Assembly: GCA_003194525.1 (NCBI GenBank)
Contig: NBIV01000116.1
Location: 124,001-188,000 of the forward strand
Length of the DNA: 64,000 nucleotides
Direction: 5' to 3'
Origin: Gracilariopsis chorda
Lineage: Eukaryota > Rhodophyta > Florideophyceae > Gracilariales > Gracilariaceae
Shown here piece by piece: positions 35,545-63,437 of the stretch. How positions within the stretch are numbered: the stretch's first letter is position 1; each line of letters begins with the position of its first letter. The translations under genes and the position numbers were made by a program. A model generated the notes under the pieces. It was not told the origin of the DNA. It did not search any database and saw only the letters and a program-made list of their open reading frames with translations.

Positions 35545-36085
35545 GACGAGAAGCTGTCTGCAGGCGACATGCCGTGCAGCCTTTCCTACAAAGAGCCAGG
35601 TTGGGTACAAATTGAAAGCATATTCCGCTGTCAGTAGCTTTACTTTGGAAGCCCTGTAAAGAATGTATGCGCCTGCTTTTTTTTATTGCAGAAGTACATA
35701 GGCTGCAGAAATTGCTACACATTCGGACTGTCTGACCAGAAGTTGGGAATCTGACTACTAGTAGCCATTGAAATAAGTCTTTGGTCGCGCGTTGTTTCAA
35801 GTAGCTTTGAAGAAGTTTTCCGGGATTTCGACTTTTGCTCTCCATTTTGATTTCATATTTGCTTAGCAGATTGAGTCCTTGTGGTCCCTACGATTCCATT
35901 CTTTCGTGCTTTATATTTATCATTTTCATCTTTACGGCGCTTTACGCTACGAGGACACCCTTTGTATCCTACTTTATTGCTAAGTTTGGCCCCCTTGCGT
36001 CACCGTTTTGTGCTGGCGCCCACAGTACGCAATTGTAGTGATAGGTCTTCCTAACAGGACAGGCTGTTACAGTAGCGATTGCTAG

Positions 36086-36255
36086 TGAAAGCTACAAAGT
36101 GGCTTGCCTCCTCCTTCGGATGAGAAGGGGGAAGGGGCCGGCTTTTATTAACTCTGGCCCTCCGGCGTGATCGTTGGAGGGCCAATCCGACGTCTTCATA
36201 GAGACTGGCGTGCCATGCACGCCAGTCAAGTATGTCCACGTGGACAGCCTCTACA
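36086..36255 (-). repeat. 3' LTR (170 bp)
   Basis: It contains TTTATT (36144-36149), which is AATAAA on the coding strand, a likely polyadenylation signal. It also has three inverted repeats: TGGCCCTCC/GGAGGGCCA (36155-36184), GACTGGCGTGC-CAT-GCACGCCAGTC (36203-36227) and the 12-bp palindrome GTCCACGTGGAC (36234-36245). Confidence 0.93.
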
Positions 36256-36435
36256 GTCCACCTCCCAAGCCACCGCCACGGGCGGCTATATCAGCGCACT
36301 TTTCTTTCTCTTGCTTTCCTCCTCTTTCCCGTCATCCCGACATCACTTTGCGTTTTTGCATCGCCCCAACGCGCCACCGTCGCACTGCCTGCTCCATGTC
36401 GCCCTGTGCACCATCCTTGCACTGCGTCCGTCGCT

Positions 36436-36690
36436 GCTCTGCGCCCTGCGCCCCAGCGCTGCACTTGTCGCAATTCTGCGCCCTGCGCCCCGCGCTCCAG
36501 CGCTACACTCGTCGCCATTCTGCGCCCTGCGCTCCAGCGCTACACTCGTCGCCATTCTGCGCCCTGCGCCCCGCGCTCCAGCGCTGCACTCGCCACCATT
36601 CTGCGCCCTGCACCCCGCGCTACAGCGTTACACTCGTCGCCATTCTGCACTCTGCACCCCACGCTGCAGCGCTCCCCACCTTCCGGCACT
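36436..36690. repeat. GC-rich minisatellite, 37/44-bp units, 5-6 copies
   Basis: Units begin CTGCGCCCTGCG and end CACTCGTCGCCATT. Some include and some lack a 7-bp CCCGCGC-like insert, giving 37- or 44-bp lengths. It lies inside the retrotransposon between the 3' LTR and the start of the antisense frame. It keeps several frames open at once, so long frames here are artefacts. Confidence 0.8.
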
Positions 36691-36901
36691 GCCTCGCAGT
36701 CAGCGCTCGCATCTTCCTGAACCAGGCTTCAGAAACGGTTACTTCGTCTAGCGGTTACTTATCCCTGTTAGTAAAAGTTACTGTAATGTTACTGTAAGCC
36801 ACGTTTGCACTAAATGTGACGTACTAAAGTGGGGTTTGATTCGCCTAGTATCCTCTTAATACAAGCTGACTTGTAGTAGTAAAGTAACCAAGAGAACCAA
36901 A

Positions 36902-38146
36902 ATGGCTCGTACGAAGCCCACTGCTACGAAGACGGTATGCGGAGCCCCTCCACATCATCAAATTGTGACAAAAGGTATAGAAGCTATTCCATTCATCCCC
37001 AGAGATAATCTGGTCTTGAAGTTCTCTCGACGTGGTGATGTGGGGAAGGTGAAGGTTCTAGATGGCCGGGTAGGGCTACGTCAATTCGGTATACGTTGCT
37101 CCAACGGCGGTGAAGGTCAGTTCACGAGAGAAGAGTTCTGGCAACTTTTCGGTCCGCATATTCTTATGTTCCTTGAAGATTCCCCATGGGAGGAGCTTTC
37201 TTTCAATGATCTCTACCGTTTGGAGCTCACACTCTCCGTGAAGGTCAACGTCGATTACAGCTCGCTTGAGGGATACTCTTGGGTAATTGAGAAAATAGTA
37301 TTCAAGCATGGATACTATTATGTTGTGGACGAAGCTACTCAGCCCGAACACGCCATTGATCTGTATACACTTCGAATATTCGGAACCCCTTCCAACGCAT
37401 AGATGTTCCATTCCGTGACCGAATCCGGAAACTTCAGGTTTGGCATGGATAATCGAATCATGACAATTTCCGAAGTGGATGAGTGGTGCTTCAAGAACCC
37501 AGGACGTTATCTACGAATGTCTACTGGCAATTCTCGAGAACCCAATCCCAGCCTTAGGGATTACGAGCTACCTCACGTGCAGCCCATTCGCTTCCGGGAC
37601 GAGACTGGTTTATGTCTCCCCACAGCGTTATGCAATGGGCTGCATGCTCTCCACGCTTCTGTTTGTCATGACTACTGGGAAAGGTTCCAAGGTTATCAGA
37701 ATGCTTTTGAGCAGTTTGGTATCCCTGCACCCCGAATTCGAGATCTCCTTGATCTACAAAAACACGTTTCTCAGCATGATGCAAACCTTCAAAGAGTTCA
37801 TGGACATGGTCACTCGATTCGTCTCACAGATGTTGTTTACCTCCCTCCTGGTGTCTATCTTCTTACCCTGCACGGAACTGGGGCCGTCTACCATACTTTG
37901 GCAATCGATACTGATCAAGGTCATATCGTTGAATGTATGGAGCCATACAGATTGGTGCTTTGCCCACATTCCCTGTAGAGATGCGTTGGTAGTGGTTCTG
38001 AGTTTCTTGAAGTTAGCGAAATCCGGCAACTAGTCTTGACTCCCCATGGTTCTTCTAAACGTCCACGTCATCGTAATGATAACCACACTAAGCGCAACCG
38101 TAGGCATGCGTCACATCGTGAAGAGGAAGCTATAGTCCTCGATTAG
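36902..38146 (+). CDS. Antisense accessory protein: histone-H3-tail-like N-terminus, papain-like C-terminal part, two in-frame UAGs
   Basis: The ATG at 36902 starts ARTKPTATKTVCG-AP, which follows the histone H3 tail ARTKQTARKSTGGKAP position by position with one gap; the Lys equivalents of K4 and K9 are kept. The next 150 residues show no histone fold and no known domain. UAG at 37400-37402 is followed directly by ATG in the same frame. The second part has ETGLCLPTALCNGLHAL (Cys71 counting from that ATG) and AVYHTLAIDTDQGHIVECMEP (His164, then acidic residues), a Cys...His layout of papain-fold peptidases. After a second UAG (37976-37978) the frame stays open to 38146 with a basic tail (SSKRPRHRN, TKRNRRHASHRE). 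AATAAA follows at 38191. No frameshift occurs in 1.24 kb, unlike gag-pol. Whether the UAGs are read through, are mutations, or separate three proteins is unknown. Confidence 0.6.
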
Positions 38147-38190: not shown

Positions 38191-38196
38191 AATAAA
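38191..38196 (+). terminator. Polyadenylation signal AATAAA of the antisense frame
   Basis: This canonical hexamer lies 45 bp after the last stop of the antisense frame and 70 bp before the end of pol, which converges from the other strand. Confidence 0.5.
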
Positions 38197-38264: not shown

Positions 38265-39326
38265 TTAGCCAATTACGCATCCGTGCTCACCTTCCTTTCG
38301 GTTTTCCAGATTCGTTGGCCTTCTTACATATGGTACCAGGCGTCGAGCGTGAATAGGACTCCTGCTTATCTTTCCATGCCTTGAACTTAGAGTATAAGCA
38401 GGATGCTTAGCTCTAATGATTGTACAAGGAACATAGAATTTGGATGTAAACGGGGGCCATTTCTTGGCTTTGTTCATACTTGCCCCTTGAGCTACTAGTA
38501 CTTCGTTTCATACCTGAAAGAATTTATCCTTAGCAGCTCGCTGGGAGTTGGCGTGCTTCAGGGCTCGCGTGGCCCTTTGAAGCAAGGCAGAATCTAATTC
38601 CACCCCACGATTTAAGTCGCCACCGCTTATGAAGAGAGCGGATGGGTCATCTTGCGACATGCGAGGGGGAACACCATACAGCAATTCAAATGGAGAAGCC
38701 CCATTATTCCGATGACGGCGCCTGTACCCATACATTACCTTCTGTAGAACTTCGTCCCAAGGTTCTTGGCACTTTAAGATGGTCTTCGTCATGCAGTTCT
38801 TTGGAATTCCAATCATCCGTTCAGCTCTGCCATTCGAAATTGGTGCATGCGCCATCACTGTCTTCCAGGTGATACCGTGGCATTTGTTGAATTCTGATAG
38901 AGCGTTTGCTGTAAAACTAGTACCATTATCAGATATTTCAACGCGAGGTGGGCCGAATGGGGCCACAATCTCTTCCTTAAGAAATTCAACTACTTCCTTT
39001 GCGGTGGATGTCGGGGTGGCTTTCGCAATCGGCCAGCCTGTTACATGTTCTACTCCCACCAACATGGATTGATTTTTCCGGACTGTCTTGGGCAGAGGCC
39101 CCGCAAAATAGATAGAAAACCTATGAAATAAGCCCGTCAAGGGGTATTGGAGCGTAGTTCGATACATCGGAACATGCTTTGCCGACTCGCACCCATCACA
39201 ACTGTTCACATATTCGGCAACATGCATATATACCTCTGGCCACCAGTAGCGTTCTAGCACAAATAGCTTGGTATTATTAACGTCCCAGTGTCCAATATCA
39301 TCATGAAAACTCCTTAAGATCTGTAG
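38265..39326 (-). pseudogene. Integrase of the 7-kb gypsy element, inactivated
   Basis: The HHCC zinc-binding part is present (SFHDDIGHW ... CDGCESAK). In the catalytic core the first acidic residue is lost: FSIYFAGPLP has Tyr (TAT) where gypsy integrases have Asp (GAT). The second Asp (EISDNGTSF) and the Glu (NGRAERM) are kept. A C-terminal region (KKWPPFTSKFYV, SRSPIHARRLVPY) follows after an in-frame TGA at about 38505; another stop lies near 39325. Integration requires all three acidic residues, so this copy cannot encode active integrase. No chromodomain is seen at the end of pol. Confidence 0.85.
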
Positions 39327-39960
39327 TCACTTTCCTATCCCGGGTATCGCCAACAGCCCTTTCTTCGTCCTACGAAAGAGTCTTTCGTTCCATACCATAT
39401 AATTCTTAGCATTCTCCTTAATCTTGCGACGTCCAAGGGGATCTTTAGCTTTAAATGTCAGTCCCAAGATGTAGTTCCCTGTATCAACAAGGAATTGCTC
39501 TAACTCTTCGAATATCGGTTCTTCCGAAGAAACTGCCATTACAGTTTCATCTGTGCTTTGATCTGCAGATACCTCTGTGTGCGACAAGTAATCTACAACA
39601 TGATTACTTGCCCCCGGCCTGTATTTTATCTCAAACTCATATTCCGAAAGAAGATCCATCCATCTTGCAAGTCTCCCGTGGATATCCCGTTTTCTAAATG
39701 CCTACTGCAAGGCCTGATGATCAGTAATGAGGGTGAATGGGAGAGAAGATAGCAAATAAACACGAAAAGTTTTCAGCGCAAAGATGAAGGCCAACGCTTC
39801 GCGTTCACAGGCTGAATAACGTTTCTCAGTGGCGGTCATCGTACGACTAGCAAACTGTACTGGATGTAGCTTACCTTCTTTTTTCTGAGAAAGGAATTCC
39901 ACAAGGGAAACACAGGATGCATCTGTTTCGACTGTGAAAGTTCATCAAATTCTGGAATCC
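39327..39960 (-). pseudogene. RNase H of the 7-kb gypsy element
   Basis: The blocks TVETDAS, GKLHPVQFASRTMTATEKRY, CEREALAFIFALKTFRVYL and TLITDHQALQ are the gypsy RNase H pattern (TDAS, SRkl..aE..Y, rE.LAii.al...r.YL, tDh..L). They are followed by the linker RWMDLLSEYEFEIKYRPG and NHVVDYLSH. A frame change near 39.93 kb and stops near 39.70 and 39.33 kb break it. Confidence 0.8.
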
Positions 39961-40054
39961 CTAGAACCGGAGGTTTCACGAGCTTGGCCTTGAGACAGAG
40001 GAAAGCTTCTTCCATTTCTTGGGCCCAGCGCCACTTTTCCTTTGGTGATGTGGC

Positions 40055-41014
40055 CTAATGCAATGCAGCCGATGCTTCAGCAAGCCTAGGTATAAATCGT
40101 CGATAATAACTGGCCAATCCAAGGAAACTTCTTAGCTCCGTCGCGGAGGTTGGGTGTGGGGCTTCCTGTATAGCTTTGATCTTCTCTGGACCCGTCGCGA
40201 TTCCCATCTTGTCTACGACGTGTCCCATAAGCTTCACTCGAGGCTGCGCAAAAGTACAATTAGTCAGCTCAATCTTCAACACGTGGGAGGCAATCCTGTC
40301 AATTACTCTTTCGCAATGCATCAGATGATCCTCTATATTGTCGGAGAAGATTTCAACGTCATCCAAGTAGACACGGACGAAGGATAAGTCTTTCAGGACG
40401 GCGTCCATCATTCTTTGAAATGTGGCAGGTGCATTCATCAATCCGAATGGCATGACTTCAAACTTGAATGTACCAAATCTGCAGATGAAAGTCGTCATCT
40501 CCTTGCACTCCTCGGCCATCTTCACTTGCCAATATCCTGAAAACAAATCTAGAGTTGTGAATAATAAGGATCCACTAAGGTCATCAAATACTTCTTCTAT
40601 GCGCGGTCATGGCCACCGATCGGACTTCATTTTGGCATTCAATGCACGGTAATCCACACAAAAACTCGGGCTTCCATCCTTATTTGTCACGATTAAAATG
40701 GGGAAAGACCAGGCATAGTTTGCTGGTGTGATGATTCTTGCACGAAGCATTTTGTCAATCTCATTTCTTACCAAATAATTATGTCGCGGTGGGAGACGTC
40801 TAGCCCTAAACGTTAGAGGTTCTGGATCATTTAGCTCAAAAGAATGATTGAAAGGGATATCAGAAGGTCTGAGTTCCTCCAGGGACCAAGCAACAGCCTT
40901 TGAGTCTATAAGTGTTGCAGAGAGCTGCCTCTGTGCCCGTTCCGAAAGGTGCTTGACCTTTGTCGCGAGTAATGCCGATTTTAGGTCTCCTTCCTCTCTG
41001 GGCAGGGTTAGCAC
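40055..41014 (-). pseudogene. Reverse transcriptase of the 7-kb gypsy element
   Basis: RT blocks are in one frame: INKML-like DKMLRARIITPANYAWSFP, LIVTNKDGSPSFCVDYRALN, DRWP-TGA-PRIEEVFDDL (a TGA nonsense codon at about 40605), FTTLDLFSGYWQV, FGTFKFEVMPFGLMNAPATF, VRVYLDDVEIFSDN (catalytic YxDD intact), ELRSFLGLASYYRRFI. The single nonsense codon early in the domain and a stop at 40055 inactivate it. Apart from these the domain is well preserved. Confidence 0.88.
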
Positions 41015-41026
41015 ATGTAGGTCCTC

Positions 41027-41780
41027 TTACTGAATACCACTATCTTCATCTTCTTCTAAGAGCAGGGGAATGTTCCCTTCCCCTTCATCGTCACCATTCA
41101 TTGTCCGGTGTGATTCGACCTCCTTTGCTAGAGCCACAACCAGCTCTTGCTCCTCATCACTTTCAGATCTGGAAGACGCTCGATAGATTTCTGAGTCTGA
41201 GGTGAAATCCTCACTGTCAGTCTCGGATCCTTCCACATCAGGGATGCGTTCGTCATACTCGAGATCTAATACGGATTCCTTTTCTTCTATAGTTACGGTC
41301 ACGGTATGATTCCCCATGTCGATACAAGCTTGAATGTTCTCTAAGGTCGGGGAACCGATAATCACGTCCAACTGTGGGTCATCCACAACCAGAAAGTTTA
41401 GCAAATTCTTTGATCACCGAACAATACAGGAACGTCTTTGACGACGCCTCGTACTACACTCGAGCTTCCATCGGCGATATTAATCTTCCTCGTGGTTGCT
41501 TCCGGTGAGAGCGTAAGTTCTTCCATCAGAGAACTGGAGAGAAGGTTTGGCACTGCTCCTGAGTCTAGCAGTGCGTTGACTTTAGTTCCAACTAACTCCA
41601 AATTCACAACTTTAAATCTTCTGATACTTCCAGGCTTATGCGCGACAGCAGCCTTCTGACTTCTAGCGCTCCTCAAAAACAGTTTTTTTTGAATTTGTCT
41701 TTCTGCCTCTTCCGCATATCGAAGGAGCAGCTGGCCAAACGTGACACCACATGAAGCATTTTCCAGCTCAATAAGTACAT
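41027..41780 (-). pseudogene. Aspartic protease region of the 7-kb gypsy element
   Basis: KVNALLDSGAVPNLLS carries the catalytic DSG triplet. ADGSSSVVRGVVKDVPVLF follows, then after a -1/+2 frame change at about 41400 NFLVVDDPQLDVIIGSPTLE, the conserved second half (LDVIIG, P.LE). An acidic linker (EGSETDSEDFTSDSEIYRAS) leads to a TAA at 41027, after which the frame continues into reverse transcriptase. Confidence 0.8.
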
Positions 41781-42954
41781 TTTATCTCCCCACAAAGTCT
41801 GAAATTCCATCTTTTCGGGCCCTCTGGGACTTCTTTCGGGCCGGTTTGCGAAGTTTTGGCTTAACTCTCTTTCGGCTTGGTAGACCTTTTGTGAGGTCAA
41901 TGAAAGGGCCTGGTTGAGAGTTGAGCAACTCTTTCGCTGCCATCCTACCCTTCTTTGGTTGCGTTGCCAGTTCCCTGCCTTCAGCGTCTCTCTTCGTAGC
42001 TTTGACAGTCTCTTCTTCTTCAACTTCTTCCGTCACTATCCCCACCATGTACTCTTTATCCTTTCCAGAGTGTTTCGGTTTGTCTCCTTCTACTTACGTA
42101 TGTGTGTCATTAGCGGCGATGGCGGTTTCTGGCATCTGTGGGTTTGACCAACGCGTAGCTTCTGAGTGCCCTATCTTCCTACATTGTGGGCATCTAGTAT
42201 TCCAGTGAGGATTTTTGTCACAGCGGTTTGCGCTATGTCCCGGCTTGTGACAGAATGAACAGACAAAAACATTGCTTTCCTTGTTCGAAGCTTGTTTCTT
42301 CTTATCCAAAAGAGTAAGTTCCGCTATCTGAGATGTAAGGTCTGCTATCTTATTTTCCAGTGACTCTACGGTTTGTTCGGGACGACGGAAAATTCTCGTA
42401 GCGTGTTGCAGCTTATATTCTCCCTTCTTCTTCCCAATATAGGCTTCATTGAAAGTTTCTCCGTAACAAACATAGTCCCGAATGGTATGCTTGAGTGATT
42501 TGTAGTCACTTGCACCTCTCAGCAAAACGTATTGAGCCAGGTACATATGTTGCATGACTGCGTTTCTTAGCAGTGCAAACTTAGCTTCATCGTTGAAGTT
42601 AGCCTTCTTGAAAGTCACATCCATATATTTCAGAGAACTAGCCATGTCCAATAGGCGGAGCCTACAATTCATGGGTCGTCGTAGGTATTCTTCCTGAGTG
42701 ATCAATTCAGAAAACTCCTTAAGCATGACATGCTTCACAGCAACGTAATCATATGCTTCTTCGATTGTCTGTCCCTCGTATGCGTAAGTTTCTTAATAAA
42801 AGTCAAACGCTTTTCCCATCAAACAGGGCAAGAGCTGCGTTGCTTTTTCAGAAACATTGGCATCTTTTGCTAAAACATTGTCAAAGAAAAAGAAAAACTT
42901 GACTACATGTGAGTCGGGCTGACCATTGAACACAATTGCTGGGGACAACAAAAT
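41781..42954 (-). pseudogene. Gag of the 7-kb gypsy element
   Basis: The frame is readable from FNGQPDSHVVKFFFFFDN (near 42.93 kb) through LLPCLMGKAFDFY-TAA-ETYAYEG and the capsid-like EEYLRRPMNCRLRLLDM to a coiled coil (ENKIADLTSQIAELTLLDK). It then has two zinc knuckles, VCSFCHKPGHSANRC and RCPQCRKIGHSEATR (last Cys lost). After an in-frame TAA at 42094-42096 the same frame continues with a basic linker (KPKLRKPARKKSQRARK) into protease. No in-frame ATG lies between the LTR and the first gag block, so the leader may be deleted or mutated. Confidence 0.8.
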
Positions 42955-42985: not shown

Positions 42986-43155
42986 TGAAAGCAACAAAGT
43001 GGCTTGCCTCCCCCTTCGGATGGGAAGGGGGGAGGGGCCGGCTTTTATTAACTCTGGCCCTCCGGCGAAATCGTCGGAGGGCCAATCAGACATCTTCATA
43101 GAGACTGGCGTGTCATGCACGCCAGTCAAGTATGTCCACGTGGACAGCCTCTACA
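42986..43155 (-). repeat. 5' LTR (170 bp)
   Basis: This is the partner of 36086-36255 with about 10 substitutions and no indels. The hairpins are retained: TGGCCCTCCG/CGGAGGGCCA is even one pair longer here, and GACTGGCGTG.CATGCACGCCAGTC has one change. GCTAG follows at 43156. Confidence 0.93.
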
Positions 43156-43160
43156 GCTAG

Positions 43161-49362: not shown

Positions 49363-52300
49363 ATGCCCCGTCAGCTAGCCGGACATCACAAGTCGACGCA
49401 AGATCTACCATTGTGCCTTGGGTTTTCCCTGTGCACAAACCCGCTCTTCCGTTTAACTAGCGGACGAGATATGGTCCCGGAAAATGAAGACGCTGTTGAG
49501 AAGGTGGCACAGCCTGATCTAGAAAACCTCCCCCAGCCGGATACGGATCCGGGTGTTATTGATGTGGACGACGAGGGTATTGATGTGGATGGTGATGGCG
49601 AGGAGGAGGATGAATGCAAAGGCGAAGAGAACGCCGTTGTAGATGATGCAGGTTCTACTATTAACCTTGTTACTCCGCCTCCTGATGCCCGCGTGCAGAA
49701 GGATGTAGATGTAATTGATTTGGAGGAGGCTGATGAGGAGGGCGTGCCCGAAGGCGACGCTCAAGTCGACGATGAAGATGGAGAAGCCCAAACTGTAGGT
49801 GGACGGGGCACATTGGAAGAAGATGGGGAAGACAGTGATATACACGACGCCTCTAAAGGAAATCATGATGATGGCGAAGAAGACGAAGGCACTCCGCGCG
49901 TCGATGCCAGTAAGGATGAAAGTGGCGACGAAATCTTACCCGTGGAAAGCGATGGACAAACTGAGAATGTCGAGCATGAAATTGAACATGATAATCCTGA
50001 CAACCAGAAAGGACGCGAAGCATTGTCGATAACTCCGGTTGAGAACCAGCAGCATGAAGCTCGGCCGCAGCTTGTGTCAAACTCTGGGGTGTTTGCAAAC
50101 CCATCAGAGCAAACAGAGCAAGATATCGGCGAGGAAACTGTCACTGAGGAAATAGCGCCTTTGCCAGATGAAAAGACAAAGGACACAGAAAAGAGCGAAC
50201 ACGTTCCGAGTGAGTCTCAGAAGCTGCTCACTTCTGTTGAAAAAGTTTCAAGAGAAACTACTGAGGCAGAGGGAGGACCTGTTCAACATCCTTCCTCCAC
50301 AGTCCCTGTCACTGAGGCAAATGAGCGTGCTGCATTTCAGCTCTTCTCCGCTGTTAGGGACGATGTTCTCCAGACAACTTCTGACGCGACAAATGATGCT
50401 AATGGACAAGATCCAGGTGCCGTAGAGCCAGATGAAAAGGATAACGTTGCCCAAATTGCTGAGCTTGCTCCTACCGAACCTCAGGAAAGTAGAACACTAG
50501 CAGCAAAAGAGTCACGAGAAGAGGGGTTGGACGCGGAACATCTTAAGTTATCGGGTGACATGAAACCGCAAGAAAGCTCAAGTGCTGCTGATTCCGAGAC
50601 GGGGAAAGCACAGAAGGTTGCAGACGATGCTGCCGGAGAGAATGAAGTAGATGAAACACAAGAAGCACACTCGAAATCCGAAGGCGTTTCAGATTTGGAG
50701 GATGGTGATGATGAAGAAGTTGTGGAGGAGGACAACATGGACATGGATGCGGACCTCACAGATGACGAACCCGTTCAGGACGAGCAGCCAAATACCTTGG
50801 ATCGGAAACCAGAAAAGCTTGAGTCGTCGAAAACAGATACAGAGTTCACGGAAGACAACCAGACTGTGGAAAACGATGCGAACAAGGTTGATGATTCTCA
50901 GGTTCTAACTGCAAAGTCTGAAAACAACGATGCCGTTCATTCCGAGAAACACAGGGATATGGAAATTGTACAGAAGGATGTAGACGATGGATCTGGCATG
51001 CTAGCAATCAACACCAAAGATCAGCTCAGAGCAGTCGAAACAGTTGATGAAGTGCATAAAACAAATGCTCCTGATACTGAGGTGGTGTCACATGGAGATA
51101 CATCATTTTCAGAAAAGTCGTCCCTCTCCAATAATAAATTGGAAGGAAAACCTACAACTGCCGCAACTGCGGAATCAATACGTGACGAAGGAGAAGCCCA
51201 AGAGGTCACAGACTCCAACTCAAAGATGGATATCGACACTCCTTCGAAAGACATGTCTTTCAAAGGGAGCGCCAATACTAATTTAACTGCTCCTTTGTTC
51301 GGAATGCAAACCATGGAGCTTCCGAAATTCCCGGTATCATTCTCATCACCCCCAAGTTTTCAGCGCTCAAGGTTGAGCCCAAGCGCTCCACCGTTTATTC
51401 CAGCCGCTCATCGAGATGCAAATCGTGCGGCAACCCCGCAAACAGAATTAGATTCCACCTCGCACATGGACGTCGATTCATCTCGGACTGAAGACAAACC
51501 AACCGAGCAGCTCAAGACGATGTTGGCACCAGCTTTTAAAGAATCCGCGGCACGTGGATCGCAATTGAAACCTGAAAAGATTTGTCCACCGTCATCTGCT
51601 TCTCCGCCGTCTGTTCCACATTTGTCTTCAGCAAAAGTCTCCAATCCACCGGTACCTCAAACTGCCGGGGTTTCCCAAAGTGTCGCTCCTGGAGGAATTC
51701 CACAAAGCGAGAAGGATTCCTTCAAAGAAGAAAGCAAGGCCCAAGAAAGGAAAGTTACTTTTGGGTCAATCGAAACCATCACCGTGCCAAAGGCAGATTC
51801 CCGGCAATCGCCTACGCGGCCTGCACAGGACTCGATATCAGGAAGCGAACCGCGCGTCGATGAGCAAGAGCTGAAGGACGAGGAGACTGACGAGGGTTCA
51901 ATGTATGAAGTGAGCCATGTCCCTATCTCTGTTCGGATAGGGAACGGAACTGCCATAAAAAGAGACTCTCTCTCTACACTTCGTCTCGCGATCTCAAAAA
52001 GTGGTGAAGCGAAGCTGGAGATGTTTAAAGAAGCAGCCTCTTCTCTTCTACTTTTTGAATCCTTATCGAACACACGAAACACAATAAGAATACGCAAGGT
52101 AGCAAAACGAACGGTAATGACTGTAACACTCATGACAAACAACAATGGGGGTGCGCAGGTAGCAAAGAAGTATTATGTTCACTTGGGAAAACACATTTAT
52201 GACAAGCTGTTCAACATCTTCGTCATCCATTTGAATGAGGCAGGCCCAGCGCGACCAGTACAATCGGCACCCTTGAACTCGTCTGGGAAAAGAGCAGCTC

Positions 52301-54171
52301 CGTCTTCGGGTTCGGATGCTGAAGGGACGAAATCAGTACCAGGCAAACGTTCGCTCGAGGTGACTGACAAGAAAGATCCAAAGCGAGTGAAGGTTGCAGA
52401 ACGACGAAGGCAATTGTTAGAGACTAAAGCAAAACTCCTGGAGAATTTGAAAGCGGTAAGGAAGAACAAGGCAGGCACTGGAGTTAAAGATCATCCCGCG
52501 ACGGGAAAGAGTCTAAAACGGACAGCCGCTACACCTGTTCCTCCGCCATCACTTTCAACATCGAGTCAATTGAAGCCATCTGTCTCCACGACTCCGAGAT
52601 CCACTGCACCACCGAGCGGGGCGTCGTCTACACCTGCACCGCCGGCTACGACCATTCAAGGTACTGCTAGCCACTCAGACAACCCCAGTACAATTGCTCA
52701 TGGGTTTGACTCAACTGCCTTGAAGACTCCGAACAAAAATAATACTACTAAAGACGAGACTGCTGTTGGTGGGCAAGCAGGTATATCAAAACTGAAATCT
52801 GGACAACCACTCCAAGCGCCTTCAACATCAACAAGAGGTAAAAGACCTAGGCCCGAGCAGCAGCTACATAGATTGCAACCAGGACAGAATCAATCTACGG
52901 GGCAAGAGTCGAACAACGTGAAGAAGATGCGGGTTACTGAAGAAAAGGCCCAGGCTGCCGCAAGCGTTTCCAATCCCAATATGCAAGGCAAGCTGAAGTT
53001 TTTGCGTGACCGAGCTAGAAGAGGCGGCTATGGTGGATCTGCTGCAACACCCGTAGCAGGGAGAAGAGATCCCACAGAGAGCGACGAAGTGAAGAATCTA
53101 CGTATACTACTCAATGAGAAGATTAGCAGTCAAACGGAAGCCGAAAAGCAGAAGCTGGAAGCCATGAAGGGAATGGCGACTGCGAAAGAAGAAACCAAAA
53201 TGGCAAAAGAAGATGCTATGAAAACCCTAGAGGCGTTGTCCAAGGCAAATGAGGAAGTCACGAAGAGAAAATCTGAAGTTTCGAAATTGTTGGATGAACG
53301 GAAAGAGATGGAGAATGTACTGACTGCGAAGAGAGCTGAGAGCGAATTATCCTCACGGCAAAAGAATGAGCTGAGTGCCGAAGTATCTAAATTGTTAAAG
53401 CATATGGAAACCGTGCTTGCTGCAGGGAGTCCACGGGAAAATCTGAACAAGGAATCCTTCAGTAGATGTGATCATAACAATGTCAGTGATTTCTTTGATC
53501 GCCTGCACAGTTTCAAGCCAAGCACATGGCCAGTAATGGAGGACTCAGACATTGGTGCTCGGGCATGTGCGCGACATGGCTGGTACAATAGTGATGTTGA
53601 CGTTTTGCGATCTACGGATGGCGTTGAGCTGAGACTGAGGGATCTGTACGACGACGTCGATGTACATCTTGAAGAAGTGCAACGGGTAACAACAGCTTTG
53701 GTTCAGGAACATCAGTTCCTTTCGGGGTGGCGAGGGAAGCAATGTGCGCGGGATATCGGTAAGGAGCTTCTCGACCGAGAAACGCTAATTAAGAACGTTT
53801 CCGAGATCCAGAAACACGATGTGAAGAAGAGAGTGAGGGGATTTGGCGAAAGGGCAGATAGATTATGCGAGCTGATTGCTGCTTGTGGGTGGAAGCCTCA
53901 TGGGAAGGCAGTCCGTTGTGAATGGTGCGGGATCGTAGCCGTGGGTGATTTGCACTTGAGGGAGAGTCATTACAAGTTCTGCATGTTCGCAGAGGAACAA
54001 GATGAAGTGCGACGCAACATAGAACTCCTCGGACTAGACTGGGAAGTTGAAGGAGATAGACTGGGGTGGTTCTTCCGTTCCTCATATGGTGATGTAGTTG
54101 ATGCAGTGCAAGAAAGCGTGCTAGAGGAAGCTACGAAGGACGACGGAGGTGATATTGTTATGGCTGGGTGA
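49363..54171 (+). CDS. Large acidic coiled-coil protein with tandem BIR/C3HC-like (NuBaID/ZC3HC1-type) domains
   Basis: This is one uninterrupted frame of 1602 residues; a second in-frame ATG lies at 49471 (M37). Residues ~40-640 are low-complexity and very acidic. Residues ~700-840 are Ser/Pro-rich. Residues ~846-955 (SVRIGNGTAIKRDSLSTLRL to KLFNIFVIHL) form a compact beta-rich stretch, possibly PH/RanBD-like. Residues ~970-1230 are basic and disordered, and ~1240-1354 are coiled coil. Residues ~1365-1464 (DFFDRLHSFKPSTWP, ARACARHGWYNSDVDVL) resemble the first C3HC/BIR-like domain of ZC3HC1/Rsm1 but lack the usual cysteines. Residues ~1490-1540 (LIAACGWKP, RCEWCGI, HYKFC) keep the second domain's CxxC...HxxxC ligands. 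ZC3HC1/Pml39 proteins bind TPR at the nuclear pore basket. A nuclear role is inferred from these domains; the long N-terminal extension is unusual for that family. Confidence 0.75.
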   Translation: MPRQLAGHHKSTQDLPLCLGFSLCTNPLFRLTSGRDMVPENEDAVEKVAQPDLENLPQPDTDPGVIDVDDEGIDVDGDGEEEDECKGEENAVVDDAGSTINLVTPPPDARVQKDVDVIDLEEADEEGVPEGDAQVDDEDGEAQTVGGRGTLEEDGEDSDIHDASKGNHDDGEEDEGTPRVDASKDESGDEILPVESDGQTENVEHEIEHDNPDNQKGREALSITPVENQQHEARPQLVSNSGVFANPSEQTEQDIGEETVTEEIAPLPDEKTKDTEKSEHVPSESQKLLTSVEKVSRETTEAEGGPVQHPSSTVPVTEANERAAFQLFSAVRDDVLQTTSDATNDANGQDPGAVEPDEKDNVAQIAELAPTEPQESRTLAAKESREEGLDAEHLKLSGDMKPQESSSAADSETGKAQKVADDAAGENEVDETQEAHSKSEGVSDLEDGDDEEVVEEDNMDMDADLTDDEPVQDEQPNTLDRKPEKLESSKTDTEFTEDNQTVENDANKVDDSQVLTAKSENNDAVHSEKHRDMEIVQKDVDDGSGMLAINTKDQLRAVETVDEVHKTNAPDTEVVSHGDTSFSEKSSLSNNKLEGKPTTAATAESIRDEGEAQEVTDSNSKMDIDTPSKDMSFKGSANTNLTAPLFGMQTMELPKFPVSFSSPPSFQRSRLSPSAPPFIPAAHRDANRAATPQTELDSTSHMDVDSSRTEDKPTEQLKTMLAPAFKESAARGSQLKPEKICPPSSASPPSVPHLSSAKVSNPPVPQTAGVSQSVAPGGIPQSEKDSFKEESKAQERKVTFGSIETITVPKADSRQSPTRPAQDSISGSEPRVDEQELKDEETDEGSMYEVSHVPISVRIGNGTAIKRDSLSTLRLAISKSGEAKLEMFKEAASSLLLFESLSNTRNTIRIRKVAKRTVMTVTLMTNNNGGAQVAKKYYVHLGKHIYDKLFNIFVIHLNEAGPARPVQSAPLNSSGKRAAPSSGSDAEGTKSVPGKRSLEVTDKKDPKRVKVAERRRQLLETKAKLLENLKAVRKNKAGTGVKDHPATGKSLKRTAATPVPPPSLSTSSQLKPSVSTTPRSTAPPSGASSTPAPPATTIQGTASHSDNPSTIAHGFDSTALKTPNKNNTTKDETAVGGQAGISKLKSGQPLQAPSTSTRGKRPRPEQQLHRLQPGQNQSTGQESNNVKKMRVTEEKAQAAASVSNPNMQGKLKFLRDRARRGGYGGSAATPVAGRRDPTESDEVKNLRILLNEKISSQTEAEKQKLEAMKGMATAKEETKMAKEDAMKTLEALSKANEEVTKRKSEVSKLLDERKEMENVLTAKRAESELSSRQKNELSAEVSKLLKHMETVLAAGSPRENLNKESFSRCDHNNVSDFFDRLHSFKPSTWPVMEDSDIGARACARHGWYNSDVDVLRSTDGVELRLRDLYDDVDVHLEEVQRVTTALVQEHQFLSGWRGKQCARDIGKELLDRETLIKNVSEIQKHDVKKRVRGFGERADRLCELIAACGWKPHGKAVRCEWCGIVAVGDLHLRESHYKFCMFAEEQDEVRRNIELLGLDWEVEGDRLGWFFRSSYGDVVDAVQESVLEEATKDDGGDIVMAG

Positions 54172-55021: not shown

Positions 55022-56116
55022 ATGGGCGCTAACGAAGTTCCCTTTTTGGCTATATCCGACCATCAAACCGCGCTGTCCAAGCTACAGCAACTGGCCGCGA
55101 GCCCCGCGCAGTGCGAATCTGCCGAGATGCCGCCGACTTTCATAGCACCATGTCCAACTTTCTTCCGCTCTTCTTTACGGCGTCCACAGCTCTCGGCTCC
55201 CGCTCCACCCGCTTGGCCCACGGCCGCCCCCATCATCGCCCGGGATTCTTCTTACCACCAGCTTCATCGACCTTCTCCTGGCGATGACTTCCACGGCATT
55301 CCAAACCCACCTCCCGGTGTGCCCTTGCTCCTTAGCGACCTGCGGGAACGGCTCATTCGACAAGAGGAGACCATAATCTTTGCTCTTATTGAACGTGCGC
55401 AGTTTAAGAAGAATAGTAAGATATACGTACCTGGCGCTTTTGATATTCCGAGTAGCCCGCATTGGTCTTTTTCTCAGTTTCTTTTGTATGAACTTGAAAA
55501 AGTGTATGCCAAAGTACGTAGGTATACATCTCCGGATGAGCACGCTTTCTCTCCGCCTGGCTCGCTGCCAAAGCCAATCCTGAGTGACCTGGATTATCCC
55601 CAGACGCTCAAGAAGAATAGAATCAATGTCAACAGCACGATTGAAAAGGTGTACAAGGACTCAATTCTGCCTCGAATATGCGAAGAAGGAGATGACCAAA
55701 ATTACGGCAGTTCAGCGGCATGCGACGTCGCATGTTTACAGGCATTGTCAAAACGTATCCATTACGGCAAGTTTATTGCAGAGGCCAAGTGCCAAGCGGA
55801 TGATTCCTTGTACAGACGGTTAGCGGCACGCAGAGACCGTACCAAAATATGGAATGAACTGTCCAACATCTCCGTTGAATGCGTACTGCTTAAACGAGTT
55901 GAGAACAAAGCAAAAAGTTATGGCTCTGACATAAGCGGTGATGGGGCAAGGGATATCTTCAAGGTGGAGCCTCACAGAATTTCAGAGATGTACAGAGACT
56001 TTATTATCCCACTCACCAAAGAAGTCGAAGTCGAGTACATTATTCAGCGGTATGAAGGTATAGACTATCAAGACGGTGAACAACAGATTCCTCTTAAAAG
56101 TGATGCCAATGCGTAA
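55022..56116 (+). CDS. Chorismate mutase (eukaryotic AroQ type), probably plastid-targeted
   Basis: Chorismate mutase converts chorismate to prephenate, the first committed step to phenylalanine and tyrosine. The 364-residue product has an N-terminal extension of about 100 residues rich in Ala, Pro, Ser and Arg with few acids, as in plastid transit peptides. The catalytic domain follows: LRERLIRQEETIIFALIER (R113 matches yeast Arg16), HWSFSQFLLYELEKVYAKVR, FSPPGSLPKPIL, ALSKRIHYGKFIAEAK (R245 and K256, the yeast Arg157/Lys168 pair 11 residues apart) and the C-terminal PLTKEVEVEYIIQRY with the conserved acidic residues. The ATG sits in a strong context (GCCATGG). All main active-site residues are present and the frame is uninterrupted, so it is likely functional. 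It follows the large gene by 850 bp on the same strand. Confidence 0.95.
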   Translation: MGANEVPFLAISDHQTALSKLQQLAASPAQCESAEMPPTFIAPCPTFFRSSLRRPQLSAPAPPAWPTAAPIIARDSSYHQLHRPSPGDDFHGIPNPPPGVPLLLSDLRERLIRQEETIIFALIERAQFKKNSKIYVPGAFDIPSSPHWSFSQFLLYELEKVYAKVRRYTSPDEHAFSPPGSLPKPILSDLDYPQTLKKNRINVNSTIEKVYKDSILPRICEEGDDQNYGSSAACDVACLQALSKRIHYGKFIAEAKCQADDSLYRRLAARRDRTKIWNELSNISVECVLLKRVENKAKSYGSDISGDGARDIFKVEPHRISEMYRDFIIPLTKEVEVEYIIQRYEGIDYQDGEQQIPLKSDANA

Positions 56117-56373: not shown

Positions 56374-58044
56374 GGCTTTCGTTCGTTCTTATCATGTTAC
56401 TGCAATGTACTTCGGGGCAACGGACGTAGCGCCTCTTCCTCTATCACCAAGACCTCGAGTGTGTCTCCCAGTGCCACTCAGATGCTCCCAGACCTCCAGT
56501 TGCAGAAGCTGCTGAACCGGATGGTGAGATTTCCGCTATAATAATCCGTTCACTTGTCTCTGTTTCGTAATCCAGTTTCAAGAGCAGGTAATCCGCATCA
56601 AAGAAGCCGATGAACATCGATGTGTCGTTCATCCATTTGACATCCTAGGTTGAAATTCGTACAGGTGAAAAGCACTCTATCTGGTTTTCTAAACAGGCAG
56701 AACTGCCTCGAATGAGATAGATCTATTAGGATGTCAAAAAATGGTGCCTTGAATGTCACAGAATGCAATACAACGAAAGCTTGTGGCGTAAGAAATCTTC
56801 ACTCGACTCATTCCATTTCTTGCTGCGAAAGAAAAGGTACTACGCAGTTTGAATGGTAAGATTGACGTCCACATAAACACGTGAATCCCACTCTGAACAT
56901 GCGAGCCAGTTATGTCCATCTCTGTTGGCAATCGATCTTATCTACTGTGAGCTCATGAATGGTTTTCACTCCTGTGCTGCAAGGCCCTTGGTTCTCTGTC
57001 GTCTCCGGGTGCAGCGCCCATGGATGCAGCGTAGGAATCATAAGTGTTGGGCACATGCAGTTCCGCCCGCCGAGGTGTGCCGACCTTCCGAAAACGACAC
57101 AAAACACTATCAAAAGTTACGCCGGACAAGGAAGACAAGTTGGGGTGCAAATTCGCAAACGACGCACACATTTAGACAAGGGTTCATCGAGCCCATAGCC
57201 ACATACGCGCCAGAGTGTCAATTCCGAATGCCTCCGACACAGACATACGGATACTCGAAAGAGCCAGTAATGTAGGATTGAGAATCCAAACAGGGTGTGT
57301 TAAATCCACACGAGTCGAAAAACTTCGGGAACTGACCAAAGTCATGTCACTGCCAGAGATAGCAGCTCTCAAAGCCGCAGCACTATATGAAAAGGTCATG
57401 CGGCTTCCCGAGAATATACCGGTACAACAATCAATCTTAACACTCTCCAATACGCGAATCAGGAAAGAGAGGTCTACATTGAAAAGAGAAGCAGAGAAGA
57501 AACTGGCAAACCTCGGCCTTCTTCACCTGCCGCGCGCCTCGCTTTCAATCGAGCCAGGAATCTCCATAATACAGAATGTGAAGTTCCATTTTACTTCGCG
57601 TTCCAAAGACGATAACAAGGCAGTCCAATAGGAAGCAGCGCAAGAGCACTGCTTGGCGCACAAAAGCCAGCAAAATGCGAAATATGAAGTGATGGCTCGG
57701 TAGGAGAGCCGTGAAGACAACCAGAGAACAGGAAATCCCGAATTGCGGTAGAGTGGACGGCTGGATGGTGTAAAGGCAGCGCTAGGAAGTTTGTCGGATC
57801 TATGACAGCACATCCTCAGTGCCGCCAGTTTTATGAACGGCATGGCCGAATGCCAGACATGGTTGTATACTATGATGATGAATATGTCATGGCCTACTCC
57901 TATCTGGATTCCCAGACCATAATAGATACAGACGGGCATAAATTGGGATAACAGCTCCTTTCTCTGAAGAAAGCAGGAGCTGCAGCCTACGCTATCGCGT
58001 GGGATGAGAACAGTTCTGAACCAAAACACGCCACACTCCCGGCT

Positions 58045-58314
58045 GTGGTGGAAGTGTCCTCGTTCACAGCAGAAGTCACTGCTGCAAAACAAGCGCTAGA
58101 AAAGATTTTGCAGCGATGCGAAGAGGGATGGAAAGGAAGAACCAGGTTGGCAACGGACTCCGAAAGTATGGTAGATGGATTGCAGGGCTCGCTTCAACAG
58201 CAACCCTCTTCGTTACAAACTGTTTCACGAATACTAAGTTCCATCAGCGACAGAAGGGGCTGCTTCATTGATATCGTTTGGATACCCGGTCACAGCGGCC
58301 CTCCGCAGAATTAA
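58045..58314 (+). pseudogene. RNase H part of LINE copy A
   Basis: The open segment carries the Glu (SSFTAEVTAAKQAL), Asp (LATDSESMVDGL) and the WIPGHSG block with the catalytic-region His of type-I RNase H. It ends at a TAA where copy B has Glu (QNERVD). The first Asp (DTDGHKLG) lies upstream before an in-frame stop at about 57950. Confidence 0.75.
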
Positions 58315-58767
58315 CGGGTGGATAGCCTTGCAAAGCAAGGCTTGAGCACTCCTTTGAAAGATCAAGTCAGAATACCGGTCTAATTTGAGGACGCCAAGAC
58401 AGAATAATTGCTGCCTCCAGAGCCAAGTATTTGATCAATGATGTCCCAGAAGAACTACAGGGCATCATATCGCCGCGGAAAGCAGAATGCACGCCGTCTC
58501 AGATCTATGTAGGACACACGCCGAAGCTTCACCCTGTTGCAAGCTACATAGAAGGGAAACCATCACAATGCGACTGCAACACGCACCCTACCAACAGCGC
58601 TGAACACTATGTGCTTCTTTGTGCCAAGCGGACGGTATCTAGGAGACGCGAGCTTCCTGCCCCAGCAAAGAGAAGATGTAGGACTTTGGCGGAGATAGTC
58701 CGCCAGTGGCCACAAAAGTTGTTAGCCTTCCTTAAAGGAGAGAGGTTTTTCTCATATAAACCTCTGT

Positions 58768-58792
58768 CAATATGCCGTAATCAGGCATATTG
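58768..58792 (+). repeat. LINE 3'-terminal stem-loop, copy A
   Basis: CAATATGCC, loop GTAATCA, GGCATATTG: nine perfect pairs, directly followed within 10 bp by the A/AAGAAG tail. Confidence 0.8.
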
Positions 58793-58826
58793 GTCACAAA
58801 AGAAAGAAGAAGAAGGAAGCCAAAAG

Positions 58827-59880: not shown

Positions 59881-60269
59881 GCCCCAGATTCAACTTCGAC
59901 GCACAAGTCTATGACCATGGGTTTGCCTCTACGGATGCATCCAGGGGTGGTATCATATCCTGACGTACTCTGCGCAGCTCGAGTGTGCAGCACTGCGGAG
60001 ATCGCAGACGAACACAACCAGCTGCCTATGAGCTTCAAAGGTTGGGTGTGTGCGTGTTCGGTCACATGGGCTTCGCTCCCTAAATTCCGAAGACACGGTA
60101 GTAACTCCAGAAGCTAATGTCAACTTGAAGGCTGAGAGTTCCTTCGGTAGACCGAGTCGGGATCCATTCGGCGTCCATTTGGCGTCCTCATCCGTCGCAC
60201 AGTAATGTTTGCTTGTTGTGGGTCCGTAACGCTCAATTGCACATCGAGCCCTCAGGACAACCAGGAAAC

Positions 60270-61362
60270 AGTGAAACCAGAATCGCGGTGGAGTGGACAG
60301 ATGAATGGTTTACAGGCAACGTTAGGAACTACGTTCATTCAATGGCGGCGCACCCCTAGTGTCGCCAATTTTATGATCGATATCGCCGAATGCCAGATAT
60401 GGTAGTATACTATGACGATGAATTCGTCATGGCATACACCTACCCCGATTCTCAACATGTACTAGATGTAGATGGGCACAAATTAGGCTACCAGATCCTT
60501 TCTGTTAAGAAAGTTGGAGCCGCAGCCTACACTATATGCTGGGATGATAACGGTCTAGAACAAGAGGAGGACACTTTTCCGGCTGGAGTCGAAGTATCTT
60601 CTTTTACAGCAGGGGTCATCGCTGCAAAACGCGCCCTAAAGAAGGTTTTGAATAGATGCGAGCAGGGGTGGAAAGGGAGAATTAGACTACTAACGGACTC
60701 GAAGAGCATGGTCGACGGCTTACGCAAATCTTCCCGGACACAAACCTCTTCGCTGCAAAGCGTATCACAAATCCTAAGTGCTATCAGCGAGAGGGAAGAG
60801 TGTTCCATCGATATCGTTTAGATACCCTTTCATTGCGGTCTTCCGCAAAATGAACGGGTGGATATCCTTGCAAAGCAAGGCTTAAGCACTTCCTCGAAAG
60901 ATCAAATCGAAGTCCCGATCTACTTTGAAGACGCTAAAACACGAATCATGGCGGGTTCGAAAGCCAAACCCTTCATCAGTGATGTCGCAGGACAACTAGA
61001 GGACATCATATCGTTTCGAAAAGCAGAAGTTACGCTGTTCCAAATCTACGTAGGTCACAATCCGAAGCTTCATCTAGTTGCTACCTACACAGAAAGAAAG
61101 CCGTCACAGTGCTACTGCAGCATACACGCTACCAATGATGTGGAACATTTTGTGCTGCGTTGTGCCAAGCGGACTGAATCTACAAGACGCGAGCTCCCTG
61201 CTCCTGCAGAAAGAAGGTGGTGTAAGACTTTAGCGGAGATAGTCCGCTAGCGGCCACAAAAGTTGTTAGCTTTCTTGAGGAGAGAGAAGTTTTTCAAATG
61301 AGAAAACACTATCAGCGTGCCGTAATCAGGCATGCTGAACCCACAATAAAGAAGAAGAAGAA
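60270..61362 (+). mobile_element. LINE, 5'-truncated copy B
   Basis: It starts at a block shared with copy A (GCGGT.GAGTGGAC) and carries only the RNase H and C-terminal regions, a stem-loop (61313-61337) and an AATAAAGAAGAAG tail. Copies A and B are the same family, clearly diverged, and lie head-to-tail 1.5 kb apart as separate insertions. Confidence 0.8.
60390..61250 (+). pseudogene. LINE RNase H and C-terminal CxC/H/C domain, copy B
   Basis: One frame with a single stop encodes DMVVYYDDEFVMAYTYPD, DVDGHKLGYQ (first Asp), VEVSSFTAGVIAAKRALKK (Glu position changed to Gly relative to copy A's Glu), LLTDSKSMVDGL (Asp) and CSIDIV-TAG-IPFHCGLPQNERVD, where TAG replaces the expected Trp of WIPGH. 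It then has VDILAKQG and QIYVGHNPKLH, and CYCSIHATNDVEHFVLRCAKR, the zinc-binding-like LINE C-terminus. RNase H in LINEs removes template RNA during target-primed reverse transcription. Confidence 0.75.
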
Positions 61363-62762: not shown

Positions 62763-63437
62763 CTACAAAGCCCTGGTGATGTTCACAGCGCGCCCAAAAC
62801 AATCACCTTCTCCGCAAATCTGCCCAAGTATCCAAACTGAAACGTCACGTCTATCCACCTTTAAGGTGGGTGTCTTTTGTTGGCCATCAAAGAGAATAAC
62901 CTTGTCGCCGCCATACCCATCTGTTAACTGCGTCGGCCTTACTATGAGCAAGCGTTCTTTGTCGTTCTCGAAAAACCTGAGGAAGCGTTCTTCCTGGTGA
63001 TCATGATCTGTCAACACATGTTGCAGCATAAAGTGAAACAAAGTGCCCAGACCGAAACTGAACTTGATCCTAGTACCACCAGCACCGATACTGGATACGA
63101 CGACCACCTGGACTGTTTGGTTGCTCCGTGAGATGGCTTCGGTTATGGTATTTGCTGAATCTGTACGCAGAGAGCTGAGGACATTGCTATCCGGAACACC
63201 AACGGCTACAACCACATGGGTCGCAGAAGTAGCAGTGAGAGCGGCTTGTACGTCATCAGAACAAAGCGCATCTCCTTTATGGACAGAGTAGCACAAGGAA
63301 GCCACAGAGGGGGGAAGGGACAGCGGGTTTCGAACGAAAGCATGAATGTGCGGTTTTTTGGTCTGAAGAGTTGCTGCGTGGATGAGGTTCTGTCCCATGC
63401 GACCGTTCGCGCCGATGATAAGGATGGAGGCGGTCAT
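62763..63437 (-). CDS. NAD(P)-binding NmrA-like / atypical SDR protein
   Basis: The 224-residue protein begins at ATG 63437 with MTASILIIGANGRMGQNLI. The beta-alpha-beta dinucleotide motif GxxGxxG is at residues 9-15 (GANGRMG), right at the N-terminus as in atypical short-chain dehydrogenases. HAFVRNPLSLP gives the basic residue after strand 2, usual for NADP specificity. THVVVAVGVPDSN and VVVVSSIGAGG match strands 4 and 5, and KERLLIVRPTQLTDG is the family's substrate-side R-P-x-L/Q-T motif. The canonical YxxxK is not evident, as is common in NmrA/BLVRB-like members. The substrate is unknown. An in-frame GTG upstream is less likely as start. The frame is intact and the gene stands alone. Confidence 0.8.
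   Translation of the reverse strand: MTASILIIGANGRMGQNLIHAATLQTKKPHIHAFVRNPLSLPPSVASLCYSVHKGDALCSDDVQAALTATSATHVVVAVGVPDSNVLSSLRTDSANTITEAISRSNQTVQVVVVSSIGAGGTRIKFSFGLGTLFHFMLQHVLTDHDHQEERFLRFFENDKERLLIVRPTQLTDGYGGDKVILFDGQQKTPTLKVDRRDVSVWILGQICGEGDCFGRAVNITRAL

Follow-up and report, generated by a model that had tools for sequence, protein, structure and literature searches.

Why should a protein encoded by a retrotransposon begin like a histone? The question is raised by an open reading frame (ORF) in a 64,000-nucleotide stretch of DNA from the red alga Gracilariopsis chorda (assembly GCA_003194525.1, contig NBIV01000116.1, positions 124,001 to 188,000 of the forward strand), referred to here as the window. 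An ATG at position 36902 starts a 166-codon plus-strand frame with MARTKPTATKTVCGAPPHHQ... at its N-terminus, the translation from this position beginning MARTKPTATKTVCGAPPHHQIVTKGIEAIPF.... This ORF lies inside a 7.07-kb Ty3/gypsy long terminal repeat (LTR) retrotransposon whose pol occupies the minus strand (38508-42726) and whose ends are marked by the target-site duplication (TSD) GCTAG. It is therefore antisense to the element, between the integrase and the 3' LTR. The answer developed below, to which we would give about even credence, is that this is an accessory gene of a Ty3/gypsy lineage, and that its product would be a nuclear protease with an H3-derived tail that would bind the readers or writers of histone H3 or act as a decoy for them.

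ORF residues 2-31 (36905-36994, plus strand) align with H3 positions 1-30 start to start, with 12 identities, a score reached by none of 20,000 shuffles of its own residues. An earlier sequence-only reading of the locus had noticed this H3-like N-terminus on a retrotransposon-encoded protein and was right to do so, but the single gap that it placed in the alignment is needless, since an ungapped start-to-start alignment suffices. The protein begins Met-Ala, and removal of Met is expected to expose Ala, the first residue of H3.

A search of the Gracilariopsis chorda genome with the 166-residue piece gave 69 matches, which fall into two subfamilies. Many copies carry stops or frameshifts, and at least 5 are open across the whole frame of 413-414 codons. 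Forty-eight of the 69 loci were fetched (L001-L048; L013 overlaps L005), and the tail counts concern 42 of them, 30 of subfamily 1 and 12 of subfamily 2, omitting a rearranged double copy (L005/L013) and four loci that have frame shifts or lack a match at their start (L020, L030, L047, L048). From the initiator Met onward, both subfamilies align gap-free with H3 1-30. The N-termini of other copies, which the sequence-only reading had named as a test, thus proved to be related: the H3-like tail is kept in the 30 subfamily-1 loci, and subfamily 2 is H3-like in residues 12-30. Subfamily 1 retains A1 (27/30), R2 (25/30), T3 (29/30), K4 (28/30), T6 (27/30), A7 (26/30), K9 (28/30), P16 (25/30), T22 (25/30), and K23 (29/30), with the exact ARTK string in 21 of the 30 loci. 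The window copy has Pro at Q5 and Thr at R8, position 8 being Lys in 26 of the 30. Subfamily 2 retains A1 (11/12), R2 (8/12), T3 (9/12), T6 (5/12), G12 and G13 (10/12 each), P16 (12/12), K18 (9/12), A21 (9/12), T22 (12/12), K23 (10/12), A24 (8/12), A25 (9/12), and K27 (11/12).

Against H3 1-30, all 12 subfamily-2 loci outscore all 20,000 shuffles (identities alone give p up to 0.002), and H3 residues 12-30 alone give z values of 4.6-6.4 with p <= 1e-4 in 12/12. For subfamily 1, p is <= 0.002 at all loci and 5e-5 or less at 22/30. Tail profiles built from 8 of the 12 subfamily-2 loci (profile A2) and 11 of the 30 subfamily-1 loci (A3) were compared with 177,635 PDB sequences. Histone H3 was the top match of the subfamily-2 profile (E 4.5e-4; 1-33 to 1-33, ungapped), the best 60 of 119 matches all being H3, H3/CENP-A chimeras, or Cse4. 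It was also the top match of the subfamily-1 profile, Met to Met, at a non-significant E of 0.068, and 58 of the best 60 of 79 matches were H3 or chimeras, the other two being ICAM-1. When alignment columns were shuffled, the real score was reached in 0 of 400 trials for each subfamily and jointly. As judged by sequence, the H3 tail is thus clear for subfamily 2 and for the two together. The likeness fades near residue 30 (about 27-30); past this point the protein shows no similarity to H3, and Pfam gave no match to the histone fold (PF00125). The basic N-terminus of another family (MGKGGK...QKAPRKSFAGK in the L069 family; MGKGGK...KAP.K..AGK for L069, L076, and L077) looked suggestive by eye and in a local six-frame scan (score 44, against chance scores of up to 48 at other loci) and was rejected: the profile finds no PDB histone, and the first 30 residues score like shuffles.

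The two subfamilies do not preserve the same part of H3. Taken together, the H3 residue is the commonest at 17 of positions 1-27; it is so only in subfamily 1 at positions 4, 7, and 9, and only in subfamily 2 at 12, 13, 18, 21, 24, 25, and 27. That the subfamilies keep partly different H3 residues suggests a single captured tail that diverged later, and descent from one H3-like tail would account well for this split retention. Genome-wide, just two ordinary H3 loci turned up, along with a CENP-A-like frame; one of the two H3 genes is intronless and the other has an intron after about residue 43. Ratios of nonsynonymous to synonymous substitution rates (dN/dS, Nei-Gojobori) were computed over 325 pairs of subfamily 1, from which L027, L028, L045, and L046 were additionally omitted, and 66 pairs of subfamily 2; the copies share descent and decay is frequent among them, which makes the values descriptive. 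In subfamily 1 they are 0.436 for the tail, 0.285 for H3 positions 1-10, and 0.353 for the body; the corresponding values in subfamily 2 are 0.352, 0.206, and 0.374. The ORF is under coding constraint, and its very start is somewhat tighter than the body.

The remainder of the protein offers a clue of another kind. On the strength of a structural model, its C-terminal half (residues 217-382 of the intact protein; window 37550-38047, plus strand) is predicted to fold like a papain-type cysteine protease. Among the alignment rows with a letter at the position (24 rows in total), Cys is conserved in 21/21, His in 20/21, and Asp in 21/21; the order Cys-His-Asp is that of clan CA, and Cys238 (codon 37613-37615) stands at the start of a modelled helix, 238-249. 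The corresponding tree holds 23 of the 24 rows, some of them fragments. An earlier model, made from 24 close copies, had a pLDDT (predicted local distance difference test) of 28.7 and was unusable. A fold search against viral proteins gave no match at E <= 0.001, the best being a phage C39 peptidase at E 0.017. Adjoining the H3-like tail, residues 39-96 (about 37016-37189) have a predicted fold that resembles the HP1 chromoshadow domain, profile comparison being at shuffle level; it is conceivable that this region binds the tail intramolecularly. The C-terminus (38012-38143; stop at 38144-38146) carries KRNRRH, which we take to be similar to a nuclear localization signal (NLS), and EEEAIVLD, which presumably resembles a SUMO-interaction motif. 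This acidic-hydrophobic end (EEEVIVLD or near; 38120-38143) is present in both H3-tail subfamilies and missing from the distant relatives that alignment A5 contains, and may therefore have arisen together with the tail.

The distant antisense ORFs of the lineage share the body and lack the H3-like start. Since the six-frame scan is blunt (the subfamily-1 loci L008, L029, and L031 score 46, 61, and 68), this absence rests on 8 readable starts. Closely similar matches on contigs C75, C153, C163, C198, C29, C51, C638, C677, C678, C1008, C1064, and C2 probably form a young family. The three of its copies that were fetched (L056-L058) have the same protease-like body without an H3 tail, with 432 codons in L056 and L057, and no integrase match was found near the two tabulated members among the 150 scored matches.

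The architecture of the element in the window is as follows. TSD copies at 36081-36085 and 43156-43160 enclose a 170-bp 3' LTR (36086-36255, minus strand, TG...CA) and its 5' counterpart (42986-43155, minus strand), with 160/170 identical bases. In the interval that separates the antisense ORF from the 3' LTR, self-BLAST revealed G+C-rich degenerate tandem repeats (36429-36673, plus strand), presumably the 5' leader of the ORF. By eye, the region 36280-36900 shows a possible antisense promoter (TATATC near 36283) and upstream ATGs, and an intron-like stretch, GTAAG...TACTAAAG...TTGTAG, lies 5' of the ATG. The ORF of the window copy is a decayed pseudogene. Its first part (36902-37402, plus strand) closes at an in-frame TAG (37400-37402) that is absent from intact relatives, and the frame continues for 191 codons (37403-37978) up to a second in-frame stop (37976-37978), which falls inside the protease-like region, where Glu also replaces the conserved Asp344. 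An AATAAA at 38191-38196 (plus strand), found +47 to +51 past the last codon in 27/38 copies, may serve the antisense gene as a polyadenylation signal. The last base of the ORF, 38146, lies ahead of the minus-strand gag-pol remains: an integrase fragment (38508-39227; Pfam rve, E 1.6e-7, 0.7 bits under the curated cut-off), a reverse transcriptase fragment (40055-40519; RVT_1, E 5e-17), and a gag-like fragment with zinc-knuckle-like cysteines (42094-42726), recognized by its position and a weak zinc-finger match under the cut-off.

A related copy, L075, has 170-bp terminal repeats that are 97.6% identical and a pol with Asp_protease_2, RVT_1, RT_RNaseH, Integrase_H2C2, and rve, in two frames split by a stop and with rve slightly under its cut-off; this is the protease - RT - RNase H - integrase order of Ty3/gypsy elements. 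The integrase had been supposed to lack a chromodomain, and this was borne out: no PF00385 match was found in the pol of L075, the single near-complete pol examined (Pfam, E up to 1), nor any chromodomain match in the window integrase fragment (Pfam). The chromodomain at the integrase C-terminus that marks chromoviruses was thus not found in L075, despite many chromodomain matches genome-wide (1784 candidates, 150 of them scored; some in open frames up to 1885 codons), which are probably chromoviral. The antisense arrangement recurs in other copies. The comparison covered 56 of the 69 ORF matches (short pieces and the N-terminal match C43:305916 omitted) and 24 chosen distant relatives. An integrase match lies near 35 of the 56, on the opposite strand in 35/35, and near 17 of the 24, on the opposite strand in 17/17; the hits compared are part of the 150 scored, and none of the others listed comes within 3.5 kb of these ORFs. 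Only in the window copy and L075 was the 3' LTR itself observed beside the ORF. Elsewhere, the window contains a DDE_Tnp_4 transposase (5179-6450, minus strand), presumably Harbinger-like, and host-like genes for a zf-C3HC domain protein (49363-54171, plus strand), a chorismate mutase type II domain protein (55022-56116, plus strand), and an NAD(P)-binding protein (62763-63437, minus strand), as well as a 1.1-kb direct duplication (57706-58815 and 60246-61360, 76% identical).

How does this gene compare with known systems? The clan CA peptidases AvrPphB, C39, staphopain, and Josephin share the modelled fold of residues 217-382 and the Cys-His-Asp order, whereas the body here has no Pfam sequence match and forms an element-specific family. 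Histone mimics are likewise non-histone proteins with an H3-tail-like sequence: the ARSK tail of influenza NS1 is reportedly one, EZHIP is said to be a K27M-like inhibitor, and H3K9-mimic candidates have reportedly been published as well. These are short motifs, whereas about 30 collinear residues from the N-terminus are involved here, on a retrotransposon accessory protein. In Ulp1 proteases the catalytic residues come in the order His-Asp-Cys. A captured Ulp1 domain is carried by the KIU/VANC-type genes of Vandal/MULE DNA transposons, of which VANC is anti-silencing; these too encode transposon accessory proteins with a cysteine-protease domain, but they differ in the Ulp1 order and in belonging to DNA transposons, and the word 'histone' is absent from the main text of the source (PMC13317346). 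Plant Ty3/gypsy elements carry antisense ORFs of unknown function (aORF-3R), such as gene23 of maize Grande and those of rice RIRE2 and Silene Retand, which are also located between pol and the 3' LTR, with tandem repeats in the same region, and for some of which DNA binding was predicted or nuclear proteins were reported (PMC7264820, PMC11963269). They differ in being described as without clear similarity to other proteins, or as carrying TRP28 (PF04195) and others; 'histone' does not occur in the main texts of PMC7264820 and PMC11963269, nor 'protease' in that of PMC7264820. A search of 10 proteins for the TRP28 domain of Retand-type aORFs, with E allowed up to 10, was negative; the HMMER filters drop most weak matches in such a search. 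By title and abstract, the open full-text literature, whose coverage is partial and mostly excludes subscription papers, yielded no transposable element that encodes a mimic of the H3 tail, no retrotransposon gene with so long an H3-like tail, and no combination of an antisense accessory ORF, a protease-like body, and histone mimicry.

In the mechanism proposed here, the element would have captured the first part of an H3 gene; that its tail was selected into H3 likeness is less likely. Once Met is removed, host readers or writers of H3 would bind or modify the exposed tail, which would either bring a nuclear ubiquitin/SUMO-type protease to chromatin or titrate these readers and writers, the net effect being a weakened silencing of the element. 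The subfamilies have kept different parts of the tail, ARTK..TA.K and GG..P.K..ATKAA.K, as if tuned to different H3-binding partners. The most specific version is offered only tentatively: a captured host tail, modified like genuine H3, would serve as an address or decoy placing a ubiquitin/SUMO protease on chromatin against silencing, with the subfamilies specialized for K4/K9-side and K18-K27-side readers.

Several observations weigh against this account. The K4/K9 mimicry of the sequence-only reading suits subfamily 1 but fails in subfamily 2, where K4 is His in 12/12 and K9 is Arg in 10/12, which rules out methyl-K4/K9 mimicry as a role shared by the entire clade; a complete A-R-T is found there in just 5/12 loci, K14 is gone from both subfamilies (Ala in 30/30 of subfamily 1, Lys in 0/12 of subfamily 2), and residues 12-30 of subfamily 1 are weak on their own (p 0.0007 to 0.2). 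Conservation of the first 12 residues with drift in the rest, which that reading proposed to check, is weakly visible in positions 1-10 of both subfamilies but does not extend to the whole tail. Between subfamilies the whole tail has changed more than the body (dN 0.78 vs 0.42), which speaks for a change of partners or for relaxation in parts of the tail. Compared with the two host H3 genes, DNA identity amounts to 35-46 and 31-43 of 90 bases, which leaves recent capture from the present genes unsupported; capture cannot be proved from nucleotides, and any capture would be old. As for the body, the model has a mean pLDDT of 57 (72-93 across residues 310-380), no Foldseek match reached E <= 0.001 (the best had E 0.15), and Pfam, PHROGs, and PDB sequence searches found nothing usable; C39-like and bacterial proteases match the model equally well or better, and a ubiquitin/SUMO substrate is a guess. 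Only three database proteins matched, 98-100% identical to L040, L027, and L078 and thus from the same loci or species; one, BWQ96_10502 of Gracilariopsis chorda, is 100% identical to the L078 ORF over 407 residues. In the same genome, seven phycobilisome-linker matches exceed the cut-off.

Could the likeness mean less than this? ARTK is short, by our estimate roughly 33 ATG-ARTK strings are expected in the 91.3-Mb genome, and subfamily 1 alone did not reach significance against the PDB; chance likeness of a short Ala/Lys/Thr-rich N-terminus is nevertheless very unlikely in view of the shuffle and column-shuffle controls and of the blind retrieval of H3 by the subfamily-2 profile. Selection might instead have built the tail from an unrelated N-terminus without gene capture. 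Many known H3 mimics of viruses and cells are short motifs that arose by convergence, and the low nucleotide identity to host H3 fits such an origin, but ungapped collinearity over about 30 residues from Met, with different H3 residues kept in each subfamily, is more simply explained by descent, and we consider convergence unlikely.

The main rival, doubtful but deserving attention, holds that the H3-derived or H3-like tail is only a nuclear import signal or a basic nucleic-acid-binding arm, its likeness to reader targets having no regulatory meaning. Residues 1-28 of H3 form an import signal read by karyopherins, and lysines of the tail fill two pockets of Kap123 (PMC5677370); K23, which enters one of them, is kept in 29/30 and 10/12 loci, and distant relatives have other basic N-termini. 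Yet K14 is lost, although K14Q, which mimics its acetylation, strongly reduced import in work cited by the same source (PMC5677370); a basic NLS-like stretch is already present at the C-terminus of the protein, and an NLS needs neither A1-R2-T3 nor G12-G13 nor a 30-residue collinear match. The frame could also matter as RNA, in antisense control of gag-pol, the protein being a relic: stops or frameshifts interrupt the window copy and many others, and for plant elements a regulatory role of antisense transcripts is under discussion (PMC7264820). This is improbable given dN/dS well under 1 across the ORF in both subfamilies, the retention of Cys, His, and Asp over deep divergence, the whole frame open in at least 5 copies, and a window ORF that stops short of the integrase fragment.

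Antisense accessory ORFs of LTR retrotransposons have long been known, but their functions have not, and the present family offers clues at both ends of the protein, a histone-like tail and a protease-like fold. If the tail is indeed bound or modified like H3, a transposon would be countering its silencing with a piece of its own chromatin wrapping, and the two subfamilies would be natural variants that reveal which tail residues matter.
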